Source: Anastrepha obliqua (taxonomy: Eukaryota > Arthropoda > Insecta > Diptera > Tephritidae). Taken from it: DNA of 64,000 bases. The position numbers and the translations under genes are program-made. The notes under the pieces were generated by a model. It was not told the origin of the DNA, did no database searches, and saw only the letters and a list, made by a program, of their open reading frames with translations. This document shows, in pieces, positions 21,961-32,510 of the stretch; within the stretch, counting starts at the first letter, position 1, and every line of letters begins with the position of its first letter. The DNA lies in contig NC_072893.1 of assembly GCF_027943255.1 (NCBI RefSeq), forward strand, positions 117,179,784-117,243,783. Reading direction: 5' to 3'.

Positions 21961-22893
21961 CTGAAGCCACTTCAATACTAAAATTTTCAGTTATTTTATT
22001 TAAAGCGTGGGAGAAAAATTAAATTTTAAACTAAAAATTTGTATTAATATAATATTTTTATGTATAAATTAGAGCTTAACGCTAAATGCAGTAAAATCTT
22101 TTCTGAAGCTTTGCATTTGAAATTCTTACAGTCTGGTAAATGTCAAATTGATTAGTATAATCGGGCATCTGCGGGCGAGCTTAGGTTTATATTGAAATTT
22201 TAAATAATTAGATACAAAACGAGAAATTGAAAAAAGATAAGAATTATGCAAAAAATATATATAAACATTTAAAAAAATATATAAAAAAAATTCTAAATTA
22301 AGAAAAAAACTTTCAAAAAATAAAAAAAAAAATAAAAAAAGCTTAAAATAACATTAAAAATTAAGTAAGTGCTCTTGTGGTAAAAAAACAAGTTTACTGA
22401 ATCTTGTAACGAAAAAAATATTATATTATAAAATAAAATAAAAATACTTAAACAAAACTGAACAAATAATAAAAAAAGTTTATGTAAAATCGCCAGATTG
22501 TCATTCACAGAGCTTTCGGCTAAGCTTTCCTCAAGCCACCTTATTATGTTGCATAGCTAAAACGCATCATTCACGGGCCCATAATTTCACTTGAAAGGCC
22601 AAAAAATAAATAATCGCTCAAAAAACGCTATCAATTGAGAAAACTTTTTTGATTTGTGTTAGCCAAGCAGAAGAAAAGGGCTTTCACACCAGGACAAGTG
22701 CATAGTTTAGTAAAGGTGCGACACTTAAATGCTACAACAAAAACGAATGCCTATAATTGTATAAAACAAAACAGCTAACATGGAGTTTCGAGTGGAAACT
22801 TCTCTTGTAGACTCACACCGTAGTAAGCTTTCTGCCAAAGCTCATATTTTTGTTAGCATTTCTTGCTTTGTTAACAATTAAAAATTATTTAAT
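21961..22893. other. Downstream flank of Hr4, possible 3' UTR
   Basis: AT-rich sequence beginning exactly where the extended Hr4 frame ends. A minus-strand AATAAA (plus TTTATT) occurs near 21996; whether it is used cannot be judged. The 71-codon frame at 22293-22508 is low complexity. Confidence 0.45.
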
Positions 22894-24897
22894 TCAGTCA
22901 TCAGGTAACAATGTTTTAAAAACAACAACAGTAACAGCTGTGGAGGTCGGGGCAGCGGTGGCTGTGGCTGTGACAGTGGTTGTGGGCGGAGCGACACTCG
23001 CAGTGGCCGCATTCGTTGTGGCAGTGACTAATGTGGCAGTGGTTTGGCGTTGAGGCGAGGGACGGCGTGCCATATTGGACTGTTGGAGCGGCAGCGAAAG
23101 TAATGTTGCGGACGTATTGGTGGCCGCAGTGGCAGCATGTTGGCGCTGCTGTTGCAAGGCGGTGCTGAGCTTACGCGCAATTACATGGCTACTAGCAGAT
23201 ATGGCCGCGTACGGTCTCTGTTGTTGTTGCGCGTGCTGTTCGCCACTTGAAGTTGCTGTTGCCGCTGTTGATTGCATTTCATCCGTTTGCGTTTGCGTCG
23301 TTACTGTGGCGGTGCGCACCGTTGGTATTTTAATTGTTTGCGTGGCTATCGCTTGACAGCTATTCGCCGCGCTGATATTGCAGGCAACATTTTTTGAAGT
23401 GCTAGCAAAATTTCTGGCACTGTTGTGCTCAGCAGTGGATGAGCCTCTAATGCTGGCCACCTTGCTGCCGCTTACCGCCGCTGTGGTTGAGCGTAGGTTG
23501 CTGAGGCACGAGACTGTTGTGCGAGCGCTTGTAGTTGTTGTTGTTGACGTTGCGGCAGTAGACGCTGTTGTCGTCGCACCGCAGCGCAATACGCTGGCTC
23601 CACCCGCGTTCGCTATCACATTATTGAACACGATTTTTGTTGTCGGGATGGTTGTTGCAGCCGACATGGCAGTGTTGGTTTTGTTGTTGGCTCCAATTGG
23701 CAGTATGGTAATGGTATTTTGTTGCTGTTGTGGCAGTGCTGCATGTGGGGGCAGCTGCTGTTGCTGCAATATCGTTGCTGCTGTTGTCAGCATGTTGCAT
23801 GTTGCTGTTAACTTTTGCTGCAGAAAACTTTTCTTCTTCTTCAATGGCAGTGTTTGTTGTAATAATAAATGCTGTTGTTGTTGCTGTTGCTGTTGCTCGC
23901 GCAAAAGGCGCTCTTCCTCCTCCTGTTGCTGCCGCGCGGCAGCAATTTCACTCAAACTCGCCAGTGTCACAGCCGTTTTCAGCACGTGAGGCGGTGGCGG
24001 CGTGGGTGTTGGTTGCACACCGGTAGCTCGCACAATAATTGGCGCCGAAGCAGCCGGCGATAATGGTGGAGTTTGTGGTCTCGACGGTCGCTCGCCCATA
24101 AGCGCTGTCTGCAATATCGATTTGTATGTCATTGCGGGCGCGGAATGTTCACGGGGGTCTTGCTGTTGTGTTTGTTGTTGATTTGTTTGCAGTCTTTTAC
24201 TCTCTATCAGACTATTGCCCGCCGTTGGCGAACGGTGCCCGGAAATCGCGCCCGCACCCGCTGCTGATCGGTCGCTTTGCGCTTGTGGTGACAGCGACGT
24301 TCGGCTGACCTGTTCCGCAGCTGCTGTCAGCGTCGCCAATGTTGCTGCAGCGCCGGCCAGCAATGAAGTCTTCAATATCGAAGTGGTCGGTTCTATAAGG
24401 CGTACCATCGATCGCGTAGTCGACTCCTCCACGGATTTGTGCTCCTGCTGCTGCTGTTTTTGGTTTTCCTCAATGTTTCGCAACTCTTCTTCCTCTTCGT
24501 CATCGTCGTCCTCATCCATTGAGTAGCGCTGATGTTGCTGCTCGGTTTCCACTTTGATTCTCGGCAGCTCCAGCATTGGTAAACTAAATCTTGCCTGTTG
24601 CTGCTGCTGTTGGGGTTCATGTTGTTGTGGCTGGTTTTGCTGTTGCTGCTGCTTTTGCTGCTTTTCTGTTGCCTCTCTTTGCCGCTGCAGGCGTTCTGCC
24701 ATTTCCGTGGCTGTACGTCGTCGTGCTTTCATTAGATTGCTTTGTTGTTGTTGCTCTACCTCTTGCTCTTGCTCATCTTCATCGTCATGTTTCGGCTGCT
24801 GCTGCTGTGGTTGCTGTTGCTGCTGCATCTGCTTTATCATCATACACCCCTTGGGTGGATCATCATCGATCGGCAGTAGTCCACGTTCAAGCATTTG
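22894..24897 (-). CDS. Hr4: In-frame 667-codon extension of Hr4 behind the TAG (readthrough or alternative-splice candidate)
   Basis: Directly after the Hr4 TAG the same frame continues CAA ATG CTT and stays open for 667 codons to a TGA at 22896-22894. The encoded segment is Q-rich but patterned. It has an acidic run near 126-138, an RIKVE motif near 112, a charged stretch ERLQRQREATEKQQ that could form a coiled coil, a basic LKKKKSF near 351, and repeated motifs ILKTSL (173), ILQTAL (260), VLKTAV (304) and a terminal VFKTLLPDD. The hinge of canonical Hr4 has the same motif (ILKTAL). Base composition is GC-rich like the Hr4 exons and falls to AT-rich DNA right at the TGA. A read-through product would be about 2272 residues. 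Alternatives are a splice form using the AG of the TAG as acceptor, a second cistron from the ATG at 24894, or an unusual 3' UTR. That it is a selected protein frame I consider likely; how it is expressed is open. Confidence 0.72.
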   Translation of the reverse strand, partial: QMLERGLLPIDDDPPKGCMMIKQMQQQQQPQQQQPKHDDEDEQEQEVEQQQQSNLMKARRRTATEMAERLQRQREATEKQQKQQQQQNQPQQHEPQQQQQQARFSLPMLELPRIKVETEQQHQRYSMDEDDDDEEEEELRNIEENQKQQQQEHKSVEESTTRSMVRLIEPTTSILKTSLLAGAAATLATLTAAAEQVSRTSLSPQAQSDRSAAGAGAISGHRSPTAGNSLIESKRLQTNQQQTQQQDPREHSAPAMTYKSILQTALMGERPSRPQTPPLSPAASAPIIVRATGVQPTPTPPPPHVLKTAVTLASLSEIAAARQQQEEEERLLREQQQQQQQQHLLLQQTLPLKKKKSFLQQKLTATCNMLTTAATILQQQQLPPHAALPQQQQNTITILPIGANNKTNTAMSAATTIPTTKIVFNNVIANAGGASVLRCGATTTASTAATSTTTTTSARTTVSCLSNLRSTTAAVSGSKVASIRGSSTAEHNSARNFASTSKNVACNISAANSCQAIATQTIKIPTVRTATVTTQTQTDEMQSTAATATSSGEQHAQQQQRPYAAISASSHVIARKLSTALQQQRQHAATAATNTSATLLSLPLQQSNMARRPSPQRQTTATLVTATTNAATASVAPPTTTVTATATAAPTSTAVTVVVFKTLLPDD

Positions 24898-24978
24898 CTA
24901 CCTTATGCTGGCCGAATTCAAAACGAAGGGAACGTAGAACATTTTACTTTCGAGCAATAGACTAGCAGCAGCTTGGAT
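24898..24978 (-). CDS. Hr4: Hr4 coding exon 5: final ligand-binding-domain helix and leaky-looking TAG
   Basis: The exon starts after CCCCATCAG and encodes [20 protein letters not shown] followed by NSASIR, then TAG at 24900-24898. The terminal segment has no acidic AF-2 core of the usual form (two hydrophobics, x, Glu, two hydrophobics), which fits a receptor that acts mainly as a repressor. The stop is followed by CAA: TAG-C contexts are known to terminate weakly, and TAG CAA is the start of the classic plant-virus leaky context. The open frame continues past it. Confidence 0.9.
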   Translation of the reverse strand: MQAAASLLLESKMFYVPFVLNSASIR

Positions 24979-27900
24979 CTGATGGGGTAGAGAGAAAATA
25001 TTTTAAAATTGTTTCAATACCAAACGCAGAGTTGAACACCAGTCCCATTCCATTTTCAAAAGTCGACCTTAGTTATCAAGGAAGGGCCAAAAACTCGCAA
25101 TTAACAGCGTGATTAAAGTACTCGCAGAGCTGATCCGTGTCCTTAACAGCTTCTCTTTTAGAAGACACTCAGCGCTCCTCTGCGATAGAAAAACACGTGG
25201 AATGTTTTAGGGTCCTTAACAAGTTTTCTTGGAGGAGCATTAAAAAACAAGACAAAATTATCAAGTTAGAGTTTGTTCCGAATGTCCCCCAACACTCTTT
25301 GTAGAGTCTTTGAAAGCAATATAGAAATAATCAGGTAACAGTGTAATGGAATTGCATGCGGGGTGACTCCGAGCGCCTCACAAAGCCCTTGATAGAAGCT
25401 TTAAAAATTAAATAGAGGCACAAACTATTTGGCCGCAGGGTTATAAGAAGACCCGCGGAATGGATTGTAGATGCATCCGCGCATCTACTCTTTGTCTGTA
25501 GAGAAACTACGAGTACAGCCTGCGACAAATGATAGCAAATCAACATTTTGACCTCTTTTGACTGAAACCTTGCTAGAAGCTCATGATTTGGAGTTATTTC
25601 TTAAGGTAGTACAAAGATGGATACAGTTTAGTACTAAAACACAGCACAGCTCTTCTAATCAGAATGGGACACTTAGTAGAAGGCAGGTGTTCGAAGTAAC
25701 CCAGGGCCCCTCACAACCACTTTTGTGATTAGCATTCGAGCGAAGAAAGGTCAAAAACTATTAGACCACAGTTTGATTGAAAGGTGCTTAGAACATCTCA
25801 TAGTTCTCTACAAATACCACCATAGAAACTGTAACAACCACGCAGAACCAGAAACTATTAAGTCACAATACGATCGAGGAACACGCGGAACAACTCAGTT
25901 CCTTCCCTTTGGTAGACCTTCTTCAGTGCAATCGAAGGACGAGGGAAATAGTGCAGAACTCTTCTCTAGGCGTTTTATGAACAAGAAGGAGATTCAATAA
26001 TTATTAAAATCAATCTGATCGGAAGACACGCAGTGCTTTTCACAAAAAAATTTTGTAGCTGATTTCGATCGTAGGAGGACCAAAAACTATTAAACTGGAT
26101 TGTGAGTGAGAGAAAGAATGGATTAAAATGGCTTGGTCTTCTTCATAACAACTTTGTAGGATCTATAGAAACTAAACAGAACCAGAAACGCTCCGAAAAA
26201 TTTAGGGGCGAAAAATTGTCAGATCTTGAAAGCCCACAGTATGATAAAAATATGTGGCGTATCGCTCTCATAAGACGAAGACTCGCAAACCCAGGAGGCT
26301 CGCAGTTAAGGGCAATGGACTACAATAGAGGTATCAGTTAACAATGACCTAATAATAATAGTAATGTTAAGAGATTTACTCACAAATATCTTTTTATAAT
26401 CAGTAAGAACAAGGCAGAGCCAGAAATTATAACTTTACATAGTTACTGAAAGTCTCACGAAACATCTGAGGGTTCATCCTAAAGTACTTTACCGAAACTT
26501 TGCTAAAAAAAGAGCCAATAACTATATCTTTTAAGCCCTCCGCTTTAGTGGAGGAAGTAGATATCTACGGCTTCATAAACCGCCCAACCGTATCACTAGG
26601 TGTGCCGGCAGAGATGTCTACAATATTATCGACTTAATCTTCTCAAGGCGAGAGCTCCCGAAAATCATATTTATCCAACGCTTTATGACGCAACCTACCT
26701 CCGGTATGTGTGACAGCAATTCAGTTAGTCGCGCTTGCGGATTCTGCGGCGAGGAGTGTTGCAAATAGGTACGTAACACCTGCACATATCGCTCCTGTAT
26801 GCTCTCCAGTTCCACTTCTGCTAAAAATGGAAAATATCCAATGCAAGCAAAAGAAACAAATGAGATTAGTTGTTATTGTAGTGGAGTAAACTCGTCACTT
26901 CTTGCTCTTATACTACTCACCTTTGTTCAACAAAATATACACCTTCAAACAAACGTATTCCTCCATTTTGAGTTTGATGCGTCGAAACATGATTGTTATT
27001 TGCGTCATCTTATCCACCATATGACCTACGTCCAACTTCAGCTGTTCCATGGCAATGGGCTGACCCATCAGCGTGGTGAGGCACGTTTGCAACGTATTAA
27101 GGTGAGCATTCACCTCGTCCACAAACTCGGGATCGTCCTTTTGTAGTGGCGGTGGTGTGGCGGCTGAGTGCATTTGATGATGGTGATGATGCTGGTGTGG
27201 CAAACTCAGACTGCTGCTCGCCGCATGTGGTGAACTACTCATATGATGCGTATGATGGTGATTGTGATGATGATTCGCAGAGGCAGGCGAATGTGGTGAC
27301 GCACCAACGCTGGAGCGCCCACTGGAGCTGGTGGTGGACGAAGCATGCGCCGTTGTGGCACCACCACTGCCTGGTGTCGCGGTACGGGGCGTGGTGCGTT
27401 TGCCGTGCAACGCCTGGTACGCAGCTGTCGTCAGTATGAGTATCTCATGCCATTTATCCGTCAGCAGCTTCGTATGTATCTCGACGGGTATCTCCAAGTA
27501 GAAGGGCAGCTTCTTTGTCCACGACACCAGTTTATGCACAATGGAGTCGCCAATATTGCAGAGCTTTTCGCTGATCTCCGATTTGTCTTCGAGAAATTCG
27601 GAGAAATGTGGCAATGTGGCAATGTCTTCCATGGCGTCACAGTCGATTAACGTTTGGATCATGGCGAGCGCATGCTCATACGAGATCTGCCGATCCTTCG
27701 ACGAGCTGACAGCCGAATCGAGCCGATTACGTAAATGCACGATTTCGCTGGGATTCGTGAGTGCAGTCTTAAGTATTGTACCGTTAACCAAATGCGAGGG
27801 CAGTTTGATGGCAGTTTCCTGCAGCTGCGTCGGCTGTTGATGCTGTTGCTGCTGCTGCTGCTGTTGTTGATGCAATTGTTGTGTTGTATGCGGCGGATGT

Positions 27901-30900
27901 GGCGCATTCGATTGCAAATGATGCGTATGCGTGAGCGTATGATGCGGCGAGTGGAGCGCATGATGTGACGATGGCTGTTGAGAGGCACTACTGCCACCCG
28001 AAGACGCCGACGATGAGGACGAGGATGAGGAGGAAGTGTGTGCCGGCATTGAGGGTGGTCCATGTGAGAGCGGACTATGCAACGTACCAGCTGATGAATG
28101 TGGCGGTAGCGCGCCATGCGGCGAGCCGTGTAGCGTGTGGTGAGGTGAGAGTAGCTGCTGCTGGTGAGGCGAATGCAGTTGCGCTGCCTGTTGTTGCTGT
28201 TGCTGATGTTGCTGGTGTTGCTGCTGCTGCTGCTGCTGTTGCAGATGCTCTTGCTTGATGGAGGGACCGAAGAACATTGGCTTCACTTCACTCTGCGCCA
28301 ACGTGGCGCTCAACAACTTTGAATGCTGATGTTGCGCCGCTGCAGCGACAGCAGCTGCTGCCGCTAATTGTTGTTGATGTTGATGCAGATGCTGTTGTGG
28401 CGAGAGCAGATGCTGCTGATGATGCGGGGAGAGTGGCGACTGATGGTGTGGTGAATGCATGTGTTGTTGCTGCGATTGTTGTTGTTGTTGTTGCTGCTGC
28501 TGTTGCTTTGACTTTTTGTGTTTCTTATACTTGACCTTGTAGAGATTGTAGACGGCGCCACTGTTGCGACCGCCCGGCATGCGATCCTCTCGAACGGCTG
28601 GCAAGACGGATGATGAGACAAAATTAATTAATAAAATAAAATAAAATAAAATAAAATAAAATAAAATAAAATAAAATAAAATAAAATAAAATAAAATAAA
28701 ATAAAATAAAATAAAATAAAATAAAATAAAATAAAATAAAATAAAATAAAATAAAATAAAATAAAATAAAATAAAATAAAATAAAATAAAATAAAATAAA
28801 ATAAAATAAAATAAAATAAAATAAAATAAAATAAAATAAAATAAAATAAAATAAAATAAAATAAAATAAAATAAAATAAAATAAAATAAAATAAAATAAA
28901 ATAAAATAAAATAAAATAAAATAAAATAAAATAAAATAAAATAAAATAAAAAAACTGAAAATGAAGAACTCGAGTTGTACTATTCAACGGAGAAACGTCT
29001 TAGTGCTTGCGCTTGTGCTTCGCTGCTAGTCTCCAAATAAAAATCCAAATGTATTGTCAGTGAAAGCTGTATAGTCCCTGGCTGAAATTGGTCCCCAAAC
29101 CCTATTTCGTCTATAATTCGTATTAAATCTATCCCTGTCTAAGAGGCCATTTGATGCTCTCCGAATCAAAGTCAGTCCTCACATCTTCCTACCTACATTT
29201 TATGAAGGACGAACCTCTATAGTCTGTGAAAAAAGATACCATATCAACATTTTTATCAATTTTGACTTCGTGCGCTTGAAGCAAGTCGCTGCCCAGTTCG
29301 GAGTCCTACTCCTAAAAAGGCAACTATCACCTAATTAGGTGCTTCTTCATACTTTAAACCGACCTTCAGTACCACGTGTCTTCTATCTAAGATTGTCTCT
29401 TAACATTTTTAAGTTTTGATCCGAGTCATCAGCTTCCAACTCCTACTCGTTCTGAGCTTACCTCTTCCTCCTATACATGACACTAACTAATCTAATCAGT
29501 CCTTCAACTCACCTTGCAGCACCATGCCCTGCTCGATACACTTCTTAAATCGACAATACTGACACCGGTTCCGCTGTGCTTTGGTTATTTCACAAGTGCC
29601 ATCGGCCACACAGGTGTAGACGCGCCGGTTCTGCACGGTTCGCTTAAAGAATCCCTTGCAACTGTAACAAAAAGGAAATGCATTTAATAACATAATCTTT
29701 CATTTGAAAACCTACTCCTCTTACCCTTCGCACGTGATGATTCCGTAATGCAATCCAGTGGCTTTATCCTCGCAGATCATACAAACAAGCGGCTGATCAT
29801 CCTCGTCAGTGGGCTCATGCGGTACATCCAATCCACGATTCAGACCCGTCGCATTCGAGCTACCCCATTGCTGTTGTGCACTCAAGTTCAGCGCATGAAT
29901 CTGGCCGGGCGGCAACTGCGACAAATCGCCTTCCCAGAGACGTGCCATGTTGAGCGCGTGGGGTGTACGAAATTGGTGTGGTCGTGGTCGCACATCCTGT
30001 ATGCGCGTCTGGCCAAGTGAGAGCAACAGTTGTGCCGCCTCCTCGTTGTTCTGCGGCGACGGACCAGGTGTGTGTGTAGGCGTAATTGAACCCGCCGAAG
30101 GCGAAGAGGCCGACTGCAGTGATGACTGTGATGAGTGATGCGACTGTTGCGACAGCGATGACATAGAGGAGGGTGGTTGGTGCTGCAATTGCTGATGCAT
30201 ATGGTGATGCTGTGGCGTTGAGGGTGGCGTCTGGTGTAGACCACCACTGCCGCTACTGTTGCCACCACCATGCGTAGGTGATGGCCCTGCAGTAGGCGGC
30301 GCTGGCTCATAGCCCCAGACCATTGTGCGCACGCCACAACTTTCGCCCATGATGACGGTAGGCGTACCACGCGGCGGCGTTTGCGAAGGTGTCTGCGGCG
30401 ATAGCTGTGACGAAGAGGAGGATGAAGAGTGATGTGGCGAAGGTGATTGCGGCGGACCGCCTGGTCGCAAATTACCCAAAGGACCGCCTATTACCTCCGG
30501 CTTGACACCGTTAATGCGCGCATTCGACACCCAAACCATGCGTTGTGCGGCCGCGGCGGCTGCTGCAGCTGCACCAGGCTGCATAAGCTGCGCTGCCGCC
30601 ACCTGCTGATGTACTTCGTTCTTCACGCGAAATAGTATGGCTGCATCGCGATTGGGATGGCGCAACGACTGCAGTGACGCCGGATGTATGAGCTGTGCAA
30701 TATTACCCAGCGCTTGTGGTGGCAGTTGCGGTGGCTGCTGTTGTTGTTGTTGCGGCGATGACGGGTGGTGGTGAAGTGGCGAGTGTAGATGCCTTTGCGC
30801 AGCACCAGTGCTACCCAACAAGCTGCCAGCGGCGGCAGAAAGTAACTGCGCGGGCTCTTTCTTGATCCGTAAATGTTGCTGTTGTTGTTGCTGCAGGAGA

Positions 30901-32510
30901 TGCTGATGTGGTGATGTGGCGCTAGACTGATGTCGCGCGCTCGGCGACGAACTAATTGCATTAGGCGACATTTGGGTCGGACGTTGCGACATTGCCGCAG
31001 CCTGCTGGAGCAACTGCAGTTGTTGCTGTTGCGTCAAATGCTGCATAGATTGGTTGAGTAAATGTTGCTGCGGCAGCCCTAGCCCTGACGGCGGACTACT
31101 CTTGCGCAATTGCGGTTGTGTGAGCTGCTGATGCAAGTGATGCGTCTGCACAATGGGCGGTGGCGGGTGATGTAAATGTTGATGATGCGCCGCTGCTGCG
31201 GCAGCCGCGGATGTGGGTAATGGCGTAGGCGAAGGTGAGCTGGCGTGCAGTGATGACGTGCTCGCGCTGCTTGTTGTGGTCACCGTGGCGGAGGATGATA
31301 TAGCTGAGGCGGTCGCAGTAGAGACAGATGTAGAGTAGGCTGGGTGGTGTGTGAAATGTTGCAGCGACGTCGGCGGCATTTGTTGCTGCTGCTGTTGCTG
31401 TTGAGGCGACAATTCAGACTTTATGCGCGACGGCGTCACCAGCACTGTGACATGCTGTTGCGACTGCGTAAGACCTTTGGACTGTGTTGGTGGGGGCGCA
31501 GACTGCGCGTGTTGCTGATATTGCATTTGTTGTTGCTGCTGCTGTTGTTGATGTTGCTGATAGGATAGCATTTTTGTGGGCGAGGCAGCGATGCGCTCTT
31601 CTTTCACTGAGCGTATGACACTTAAATTGCTAACACCACATTCGGCACTCACTGAACCTGGCATACACTCACCACCAGCGCTGTTCGTCGCATGACCGAT
31701 AACGGCGCCTGCTCCATGCACACCATTTGTGGACATCTGTGTGCCACCCGCTGTTGTAGTAGTTGTAGACGGACGTTCATCCATTGAATCCGGCGACGCG
31801 CGACTACTACCGCCACCATTACTCGTGCCACAACTGCTGCTCGCATTGCCATTATTATGTGGCGGTGTTGGTGTGGCGCGTGTAGGTGTGACATTGCTGG
31901 GCGTGCGCCGCCCTGCTGGTAAGCTTAGATCAGTCGCCGGTGCAGGTGACATGCGCACAGTTGTGGTTGGAGGTGGTGACATCACAGACGAGGCGGCCGC
32001 TGCGCTAACAGTGCCGCTGGACGAGTGAATTTCAGTCTGTTGTTGTTGCTGCTGCTGCTGCTGCTGCTGAATATGCTTTTGCTCAGCTTTCACAGCTGCT
32101 GCTGCTTTGCCGGCGGACACAACCACCGTAGTGGTGGCGCTTGGTGGCATTGGCGCGCATACATTGTGACCGACAGTGCTGCTGGTGCCAGTTGACACGC
32201 TGCTGCTGCTGCTTGAGCAAGCTGAGACGGGTGCAATGGTGGAGGTGGCCGTCAAAGTGACGACGGCGGTGGGCAACGGCAACGAGGAGAGCGCACCGCC
32301 GCCCCCATGGCCGCCGCCTGCACCAGCACCGCCCGTATCGCACATTTTCGGCGACATCGGTGCGAGTAGATCGGGCGAGGAGGTGGAGGTGTCGGCTACT
32401 GATTCGCCATCACTGCTGCATCTTGAATCGATTTTTCGTCGTTTCAGTTTTAGATCCTGAAAAAGGCTCATTTTATCGAGCTCGCTGTACGGGCCACGGC
32501 TCAGTGTCAT
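24898..32510 (-). CDS. Hr4: Hormone receptor 4 (orphan nuclear receptor, NR6A/GCNF group), 5 coding exons
   Basis: Joined coding exons on the minus strand are 32510-29725, 29661-29513, 28597-26921, 26820-26699 and 24978-24898. Every intron is GT-AG and the phases close exactly, giving 1604 codons and a TAG at 24900-24898. Residues 1-905 are a low-complexity Q/S/T/P/H-rich region with a basic KLKRRKID stretch at 21-28. The two-zinc-finger DNA-binding domain is about 910-975 (CMICEDK, P-box CEGCKG, C-VADGT-C), followed by a C-terminal extension beginning [17 protein letters not shown]-rich hinge leads to a ligand-binding domain at about 1265-1604. In Drosophila, DHR4 is an ecdysone-induced nuclear repressor that shapes steroid pulses in the prothoracic gland and promotes FTZ-F1 expression in prepupae (established knowledge). 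The start is chosen because the N-terminus [13 protein letters not shown] matches the fly protein as I remember it. The gene identity is secure; the upstream non-coding exon is not found. Confidence 0.95.
24979..26698 (-). other. Hr4 intron 4 (1.7 kb) with a degenerate dispersed motif
   Basis: A GT-AG intron between exons 4 and 5. It has no convincing exon. It contains at least seven variants of a (GA)CCAAAAACTATTA-like motif at about 25085, 25749, 25847, 26078, 26179, 26417 and 26512, together with recurrent ACACGCGGAA-like words. This suggests a decayed tandem array. Confidence 0.7.
26699..26820 (-). CDS. Hr4: Hr4 coding exon 4: late ligand-binding-domain helices
   Basis: This 122-nt exon encodes residues 1538-1578, reading [20 protein letters not shown] and ending LLSHIPE, with an acceptor TTTTTAG|CAG and a donor GAG|GTAGGT. 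The codon split with exon 3 gives Ala (G+CA). The ESIQ-RY and HIPE blocks correspond to the helix 9-11 region of nuclear receptors. The exon ends in phase 0, which matters for the downstream extension: any acceptor placed in phase 0 would keep the frame. Confidence 0.94.
26821..26920 (-). other. Hr4 intron 3 (100 nt)
   Basis: A short intron running from GTGAGTAGTA to CATTTTTAG between exons 3 and 4, in phase 1. Its size is typical of fly introns. Confidence 0.92.
26921..28597 (-). CDS. Hr4: Hr4 coding exon 3: DNA-binding extension, hinge and most of the ligand-binding domain
   Basis: The exon runs from an acceptor CTTGCCAG to a donor AACAAAG|GTGAGT and encodes residues 979-1537. It opens with the C-terminal extension [14 protein letters not shown] and a basic KYKKHKKSK run, then poly-Q, His-Gln and Ser-rich hinge sequence with an IKQE motif near 1092. 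An ILKTAL motif sits at 1253-1258. The ligand-binding domain follows: [17 protein letters not shown] and the KWHEILIL segment are recognisable core helices near 1322-1367. The domain is split by about 85 low-complexity residues (1380-1466: Thr, Ser, His) and resumes with [16 protein letters not shown]. The exon starts only 34 nt beyond a 320-nt pentanucleotide array. Confidence 0.94.
28598..29512 (-). other. Hr4 intron 2 (915 nt) containing a long pentanucleotide array
   Basis: A GT-AG intron in phase 1. About a third of it is the perfect (ATAAA)n array described separately; the rest is unique AT-moderate sequence with no recognised element. Confidence 0.92.
28631..28950. repeat. Perfect (ATAAA)64 microsatellite
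   Basis: There are 320 nt of uninterrupted ATAAA on the plus strand, read as (TTTAT)n on the Hr4 sense strand. The array ends about 33 nt before the exon 3 acceptor, so it is the U-rich environment of that splice site. The long YFILF-type frame across it is an artefact of the repeat. Confidence 0.97.
29513..29661 (-). CDS. Hr4: Hr4 coding exon 2: second zinc finger of the DNA-binding domain
   Basis: This 149-nt exon encodes residues 930-978 between a TTTTTGTTACAG acceptor and a CAAG|GTGAGT donor. It starts [17 protein letters not shown], completing the P-box CEGCKG, and continues with the D-box cysteines (C-VADGT-C) and CQYCRFKKC, the last zinc-binding cysteines. All eight DNA-binding-domain cysteines are present across exons 1 and 2, so the DNA-binding domain is intact. 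The P-box class is the one that reads AGGTCA-type half-sites (family knowledge). Confidence 0.96.
29662..29724 (-). other. Hr4 intron 1 (63 nt) inside the DNA-binding domain
   Basis: A minimal GTAAGA...TTACAG intron that splits codon 929 between the first and second zinc fingers. The position is within the P-box CEG|CKG, and skipping would destroy the DNA-binding domain. Confidence 0.94.

Follow-up and report, generated by a model that had tools for sequence, protein, structure and literature searches.

The Hr4 locus and the open frame beyond its stop codon

The window analysed, a stretch of 64 kb from Anastrepha obliqua, carries on its minus strand an Hr4 gene of five coding exons that together amount to 1603 codons once spliced (Table 1). 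Four matches to Hr4 of Bactrocera oleae span the coding exons, with identities of 81% (exons 1-2), 83%, 75%, and 93%, and the body of the protein is 76% identical to Hr4 of Musca vetustissima across 1391 aligned residues. The zf-C4 domain, scored on a partial exon, lies above its cut-off; Hormone_recep, scored on a single exon, reaches 18.2 bits and thus stays under its cut-off of 23.5. Zinc fingers and ligand-binding domain identify the gene, as judged from sequence, as the Hr4 orthologue, which we take to belong to the NR6A class of nuclear receptors. Isoform X2 of B. oleae Hr4 begins with 381 residues that precede the matching part and have no match in the window (32510-64000, E up to 1e-4); the upstream exons are therefore either located elsewhere or diverged. 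The intron preceding coding exon 3 holds an AATAA tandem repeat of 64 copies with 100% match (28630-28951).

Table 1. Positions of the Hr4 coding exons, the candidate extension and its conserved blocks in the window, with the POU control locus found elsewhere in the genome.
Feature	Positions	Strand	Evidence
Hr4 coding exon 1, start ATG to zinc-finger domain start	29725..32510	-	spliced assembly, B. oleae match, zf-C4 start
Hr4 coding exon 2, zinc fingers	29513..29661	-	spliced assembly, B. oleae match
Hr4 coding exon 3, hinge and most of ligand-binding domain	26921..28597	-	assembly, B. oleae match, Hormone_recep below curated cut-off
Hr4 coding exon 4	26699..26817	-	spliced assembly, B. oleae match
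Hr4 final coding exon (26 residues) and stop	24898..24978	-	assembly; 8/8 matched Hr4 proteins share end
Hr4 TAG, candidate readthrough stop	24898..24900	-	context AGG TAG CAA ATG; same TAG CAA at vvl/drifter-like L010
Second ORF, 667 codons and TGA (C-terminal extension)	22894..24897	-	open frame, shuffles, codon usage
Block 1, ML(E/Q)RGLL	24874..24894	-	4/4 sequences; near expected helix 12 place
Block 2, LPMLELPRIK	24553..24582	-	alignment; VE next gives psi-K-x-E pattern
Block 3, LIEPTTSILKTSLLAGAAATLATLTAAAEQ	24310..24399	-	alignment; predicted helix 172-198, low confidence
Block 4, TYKSILQTALMGERP	24085..24129	-	alignment
Block 5, VLKTAVTLASLSEIAA	23938..23985	-	alignment
Block 7, KIPTVRTATVTTQTQT	23284..23331	-	alignment
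C-terminal block 8, VTVVVFKTLLPDD, FxxLL	22897..22935	-	alignment, motif scan
vvl/drifter-like POU gene (L010)	C3 of the same genome, around 88375072	+	POU match, UAG-C, Q/N/H-rich extension

All eight Hr4 proteins matched (Bactrocera, Musca, and six mosquitoes, two of the eight without an Hr4 name) have NSA(S/N)(I/V)R as their C-terminal end, and the Hr4 region compared is 97-98% identical to that of Bactrocera and Musca. Since all of them end at the same residue, the Hr4 TAG is probably an old stop, and a sequencing error or a fresh nonsense change at this position is unlikely. By this comparison, the short form of Hr4 appears to be real, and its end is conserved. When Hr4 with the downstream frame attached served as query (last 792 residues scored, 7942 candidates), the matches covered the ligand-binding domain only, and in none of the eight did they reach the tail.

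The initial annotation had described the sequence NSASIR-TAG, then CAA ATG, followed by 667 open codons to a TGA at 22894. This arrangement was reproduced on the minus strand, with CAA at 24897-24895, ATG at 24894-24892, and TGA at 22896-22894; the count of 667 takes in the CAA and becomes 666 when made from the ATG. The extended product, put there at about 2272 residues, is of that size, the computed value being 2271. Five stop-to-stop frames of at least 200 codons occur in the window, and the three that exceed 600 (957, 688, and 667 aa) are all part of Hr4. Across the tail stretch there are no stops in frame, compared with 25 and 28 in the other forward frames and 22, 6, and 23 on the opposite strand. 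Across 500 dinucleotide shuffles of the tail, in-frame stops never numbered fewer than 10 (mean 21) and the longest open run reached 284 codons; the same result (0/500) was obtained after removal of 60 residues in Q-runs. Scored by Hr4 codon usage, frame 0 gives +0.11 per codon and the other five frames -0.32 to -0.40; with the Q-runs left out, these values are +0.03 and -0.29 to -0.42, respectively. The shuffles and the codon usage, which favours frame 0 alone, thus bear out the protein-coding composition originally ascribed to the frame, and they rule out a chance or low-complexity ORF. The AT-rich background was said to resume exactly at the TGA. A sharp fall in GC does occur there, but it takes two 200-base steps: values of 0.44-0.61 within the tail give way to 0.33 and 0.39 directly past the TGA and then to 0.13-0.24. 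On the plus strand, a 210-aa open frame lies antisense to the tail (23357-23989) and is probably a side effect of codon patterning on the opposite strand.

Conservation and composition of the candidate extension

A search of 5.8 billion proteins (7978 candidates scored) returned three relatives of the tail, with E-values of 1.2e-20, 3.9e-19, and 3.0e-13. One is a protein of Calliphora vicina named "mucin-5AC-like" (568 aa), and the other two are unnamed (582 and 590 aa). Each of the three aligns end to end, from the first ATG past the Hr4 stop through the final residue, at 33-35% identity; the alignments to the window sequence cover 498-508 residues and are broken by 24-34 gap runs. Conservation in the window sets in one codon past the Hr4 stop. 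These relatives were compared as protein models, which begin at start codons, and the shared starting Met is thus partly built in. Despite the gap runs, seven clear blocks follow one another in a single frame from the first residue to the last, and the gap runs imply many insertions and deletions without loss of frame. The consensus of the N-terminal blocks reads ML(E/Q)RGLL; LP(M/I)(L/I)E(L/M)P.IK; EP(T)TSILKTSLL.GAA.TLATLTAAAEQ; and TY.SILQTALM..RP. That of the C-terminal blocks reads VLKTAVTLA.L.EI; KIP......VT.QTQT; and VTVVVF(E/K)TLLP(E/D)D. Block 6, between the VLKTAV block 5 and the KIP block 7, is weak.

A protein search with the masked block profile (E up to 10, 7994 candidates) recovered the same three relatives and nothing more, and three protein searches found no version of the tail from Drosophila or from a further tephritid. 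The identity of 33-35% in the tail compares with the 76% of the Hr4 body against M. vetustissima; faster divergence than in first ORFs is reported for readthrough regions (PMC5100048). The tail had no match in Pfam, in the Protein Data Bank, or in phage records. Within its own genome (836 Mb), it was the sole match at E 0.001 (29 candidates scored), and a duplicated gene was rejected on these grounds. The three end-to-end relatives support the proposal of a downstream frame that encodes protein and is under selection; on the evidence of alignment and composition, Hr4 is followed in frame by a genuine, conserved coding stretch.

Structure prediction of the tail with AlphaFold, run with four sequences, gave a mean pLDDT of 45, as for disordered activation-type sequence. 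Confident helices were predicted only in Q/E/R-rich stretches (about residues 40-85 and 312-378), which for the most part belong to the window sequence alone. In the tail, the pattern [ILVM]L[KRQ]T[AS][LVI], picked after the blocks had been seen, is found at three places; each of the three relatives has it at the corresponding positions, and a fourth copy is present in two of them. It also appears once in the receptor's own domain, at residue 1253 (exon 3). Among 20000 shuffles of the tail none held three copies, and 246 of 20000 shuffles of Hr4 held one or more. When all 14-residue stretches of the tail and the Hr4 body were compared, the ILKTAL likeness was outside the ten best. No LXXLL or CoRNR-type motif was found in the window tail. 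The C-terminal F(E/K)TLLP(E/D)D is similar to activation motifs of the FxxLL/acidic kind. Both the ILKTAL-like repeats and the FxxLL-acidic end are hints of function that should be treated as leads and not as results.

Possible routes of translation into the candidate extension

Programmed readthrough of the UAG is the best-supported route into the tail, and we consider it the likely one. As proposed in the initial annotation, it remains the best reading of a second ORF that lies in the same exon and frame as Hr4, behind a UAG-CAA stop with a poor splice acceptor; we infer the route itself, together with how often and in which tissue it would be taken, which residue would be placed at the UAG, and how the receptor would be affected. 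One Hr4 mRNA would yield two proteins. The majority of ribosomes would halt at the UAG to give the receptor of 1603 residues, and a fraction would decode the UAG, probably as Gln by the precedent of dfr, pass CAA AUG, and append 667 residues that are predicted to be largely disordered, Q/T/A-rich, and furnished with conserved hydrophobic blocks.

The stop has the C at the following position (TAG CAA) that makes for a leaky context. A positive control is present in the same genome: the POU locus L010 has TAG CAATCA followed by 257 open codons in which Q, N, and H abound. Its POU match, coupled with agreement with the published features of the gene, suggests that it is vvl/drifter-like. At this locus, a second TAG-C is followed by an 18-codon stretch. 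As a negative control, the second ORFs of five clear nuclear-receptor last exons in the genome have 13, 1, 32, 2, and 69 codons; this control began with eight loci, two of which were dropped, and the sixth (L004, 16 codons) is doubtful as its stop may be untrue. At another POU locus, L011, 74 open codons follow a TGA that is possibly intronic, and so second ORFs of moderate length do occur. Locus L008 (C4:87862094-87865516, minus strand), presumably EcR-like, has a last exon that ends ...GGGDNNTAA-TAG-CAG with 69 further open codons that are acidic and coding-like; it is possibly another UAG-CAR readthrough receptor.

Other features around the stop were also inspected. The tail contains nine CAGCAGCA 8-mers, a word reported to be enriched in fly readthrough genes (PMC5100048), the weight of which is limited because any poly-Q stretch is expected to yield such words. 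A published rule distinguishes readthrough from a separate start by how strongly the segment from stop to ATG scores as coding (PMC5100048); at Hr4 this segment is a single codon, too short for the rule. No stable RNA structure was found 3' of the Hr4 stop (z +0.46). Two of 60 windows in an RNA-fold scan fell below z -1.5, and the one of these two that covers the stop folds ordinarily, 169 of 1000 synonymous resamples folding as well; a stimulating stem-loop of the headcase type is thus unsupported. Between the Hr4 TAG and the TGA there is no AATAAA, the first one being at 22000, beyond the TGA. An ATTAAA at 23334 and minor variants at 24838, 24201, and 23835 lie within the tail ORF, and hence a shorter 3' end is possible.

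The main rival to readthrough, and a serious one, is a separate downstream transcript. Given a promoter of its own within the last intron, or a 5' exon without coding sequence, such a transcript would allow the ATG at 24894 to initiate an independent protein of 666 residues. NCBI models the Calliphora vicina homologue as just such a stand-alone protein of 568 residues, and the other two relatives are likewise protein records starting at this Met; these records are weak evidence because gene models must begin at a start codon, and prediction software would also make stand-alone gene calls from a readthrough ORF. An acceptor-like AG at 24907, which would leave the ATG at 24894 as the first, scores 5.2 on an approximate acceptor matrix, near the 6.1 of the real exon-5 acceptor. 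Against a separate gene, its frame would match that of Hr4 by luck alone (1 in 3), and a start 3 nt beyond the Hr4 stop would likewise be luck. An intron-started transcript that retained exon 5 would, moreover, meet at least the ATG at 24942 earlier, and the ATG at 24894 has the context GCAAATGC, with C at -3. We consider this alternative unlikely overall, though the least so of the rivals.

Alternative splicing would need a 3' splice site at TAG|CAA that joins exon 4 to the tail in place of the 26 residues that close the ligand-binding domain. Such a junction would be in frame, as exon 4 ends in phase 0; it would account for the onset of conservation right past the TAG and would suit an AF-2 swap. 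The acceptor itself is poor: on the same approximate matrix TAG|CAA scores -3.3, at the 14th percentile of the 2957 AGs on the strand, whereas the four real Hr4 acceptors score 5.7-11.8 (87th-99.6th percentile). Its pyrimidine content is 0.44 as opposed to 0.75-0.88 at the real acceptors, competing AGs lie 4 and 10 nt upstream, and the tail is absent from all eight Hr4 proteins found. Splicing into the tail is, accordingly, quite improbable.

Two further routes have very little probability. Termination at the UAG could be followed by reinitiation at the AUG 3 nt on, and both the UAG CAA AUG spacing and the Met that leads all four aligned sequences (partly built in by gene models) are in keeping with it. 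The C at -3 of the ATG speaks against it, and reinitiation following an ORF of 1603 codons is very inefficient in animals. A-to-I editing, equally improbable, would convert the UAG to UGG (Trp). UAG is a favoured editing triplet, and the Hr4 stop can sit in a hairpin; this hairpin is, however, unremarkable for such a sequence, and within 300 nt of context the stop pairs only about half the time and with other partners. The dfr study reports that a check for editing near the dfr stop detected none (PMC8417969). A mini-intron that excises the TAG was rejected, as conserved block 1 would be removed as well.

Possible effect on the receptor and known readthrough systems

When the Hr4 ligand-binding domain was aligned with USP (1g2n), the alignment extended to residue 265 of 275 in the query and 236 of 264 in the chain. 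Past the last aligned residue there are 10 residues in Hr4 versus 28 in the USP chain, and Hr4 therefore ends about where helix 12 would begin. In three receptors of this genome that have a recognisable FF motif in helix 11 (loci L001, L006, and L007), 21, 25, and 22 residues follow that motif, compared with 11 after MFY in Hr4. Block 1 would roughly occupy the place of helix 12, which we offer as a lead. Given how soon Hr4 ends beyond the USP alignment, it is plausible that the tail interferes with or replaces AF-2. In the long form, recruitment of co-regulators would probably be altered through the activation-type disorder, the three ILKTAL-like motifs, and the FxxLL-acidic end.

Hr4 (DHR4) is reported to time ecdysone pulses in the Drosophila prothoracic gland, where PTTH signalling governs its movement between nucleus and cytoplasm (PMC3181225). 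A more ambitious proposal, and a rather doubtful one, is that the helix-12/AF-2 function of Hr4 is added by translation and not by ligand: the stop would precede helix 12, and UAG-CAA readthrough, co-regulated with that of dfr in the prothoracic gland, would add ML(E/Q)RGLL and the FxxLL-ending tail, switching an AF-2-less receptor during ecdysone pulses.

No report that links Hr4 with readthrough was found among article texts in the open-licence literature; Hr4 may still figure in supplementary gene lists. Three texts name both without a link in their available portions: PMC7244557 (DHR4 in a reference only), PMC8863297 (vvl), and PMC5788525 (readthrough for another gene's mutant). If readthrough is correct, the developmental regulator Hr4 gains a second, much longer form, and work with the 1603-residue form alone has missed an isoform about 40% longer. 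Two regulators in one steroid gland, dfr and Hr4, would then come under one translational switch. A long readthrough extension on a nuclear receptor, conserved between fly families, would also make the role of translation in receptor activity testable.

Several known systems can be set beside Hr4. The kelch stop is UGA, unlike the UAG of Hr4. Both kelch and headcase are described as having, as here, an in-frame extension past a single stop; headcase differs in that an RNA stem-loop is needed (PMC8417969), none being seen past the Hr4 stop. Among nuclear receptors, the human VDRx is the nearest likeness, with the end of its ligand-binding domain extended by stop readthrough into a largely disordered segment (PMC5868278). 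That segment comprises 67 residues behind UGA_CUAG, and the authors see no strong selection on it beyond Old World monkeys (PMC5868278). The Hr4 tail has about ten times that length and stands behind UAG-CAA, and relatives of it occur in another fly family. With vvl/dfr, Hr4 shares the nature of a transcription factor of the steroidogenic gland, a UAG-C stop, and an extension that is long, Q-rich, disordered, and conserved among flies (PMC8417969). The Drosophila dfr extension is reported to have 286 residues with Q, N, and H/P stretches; about 50% readthrough is given for the prothoracic gland, and an expressed construct carried Gln at the position of the UAG (PMC8417969). The dfr-like gene of the present genome has a UAG CAA identical to that of Hr4. 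The two differ in that vvl/dfr is an intronless POU gene with proven readthrough into 286 residues (257 codons here), whereas Hr4 is a spliced nuclear receptor whose 667 codons are known from sequence. By stop context and tissue Hr4 would thus stand close to dfr, and by gene family close to VDRx, with an extension of unusual length.
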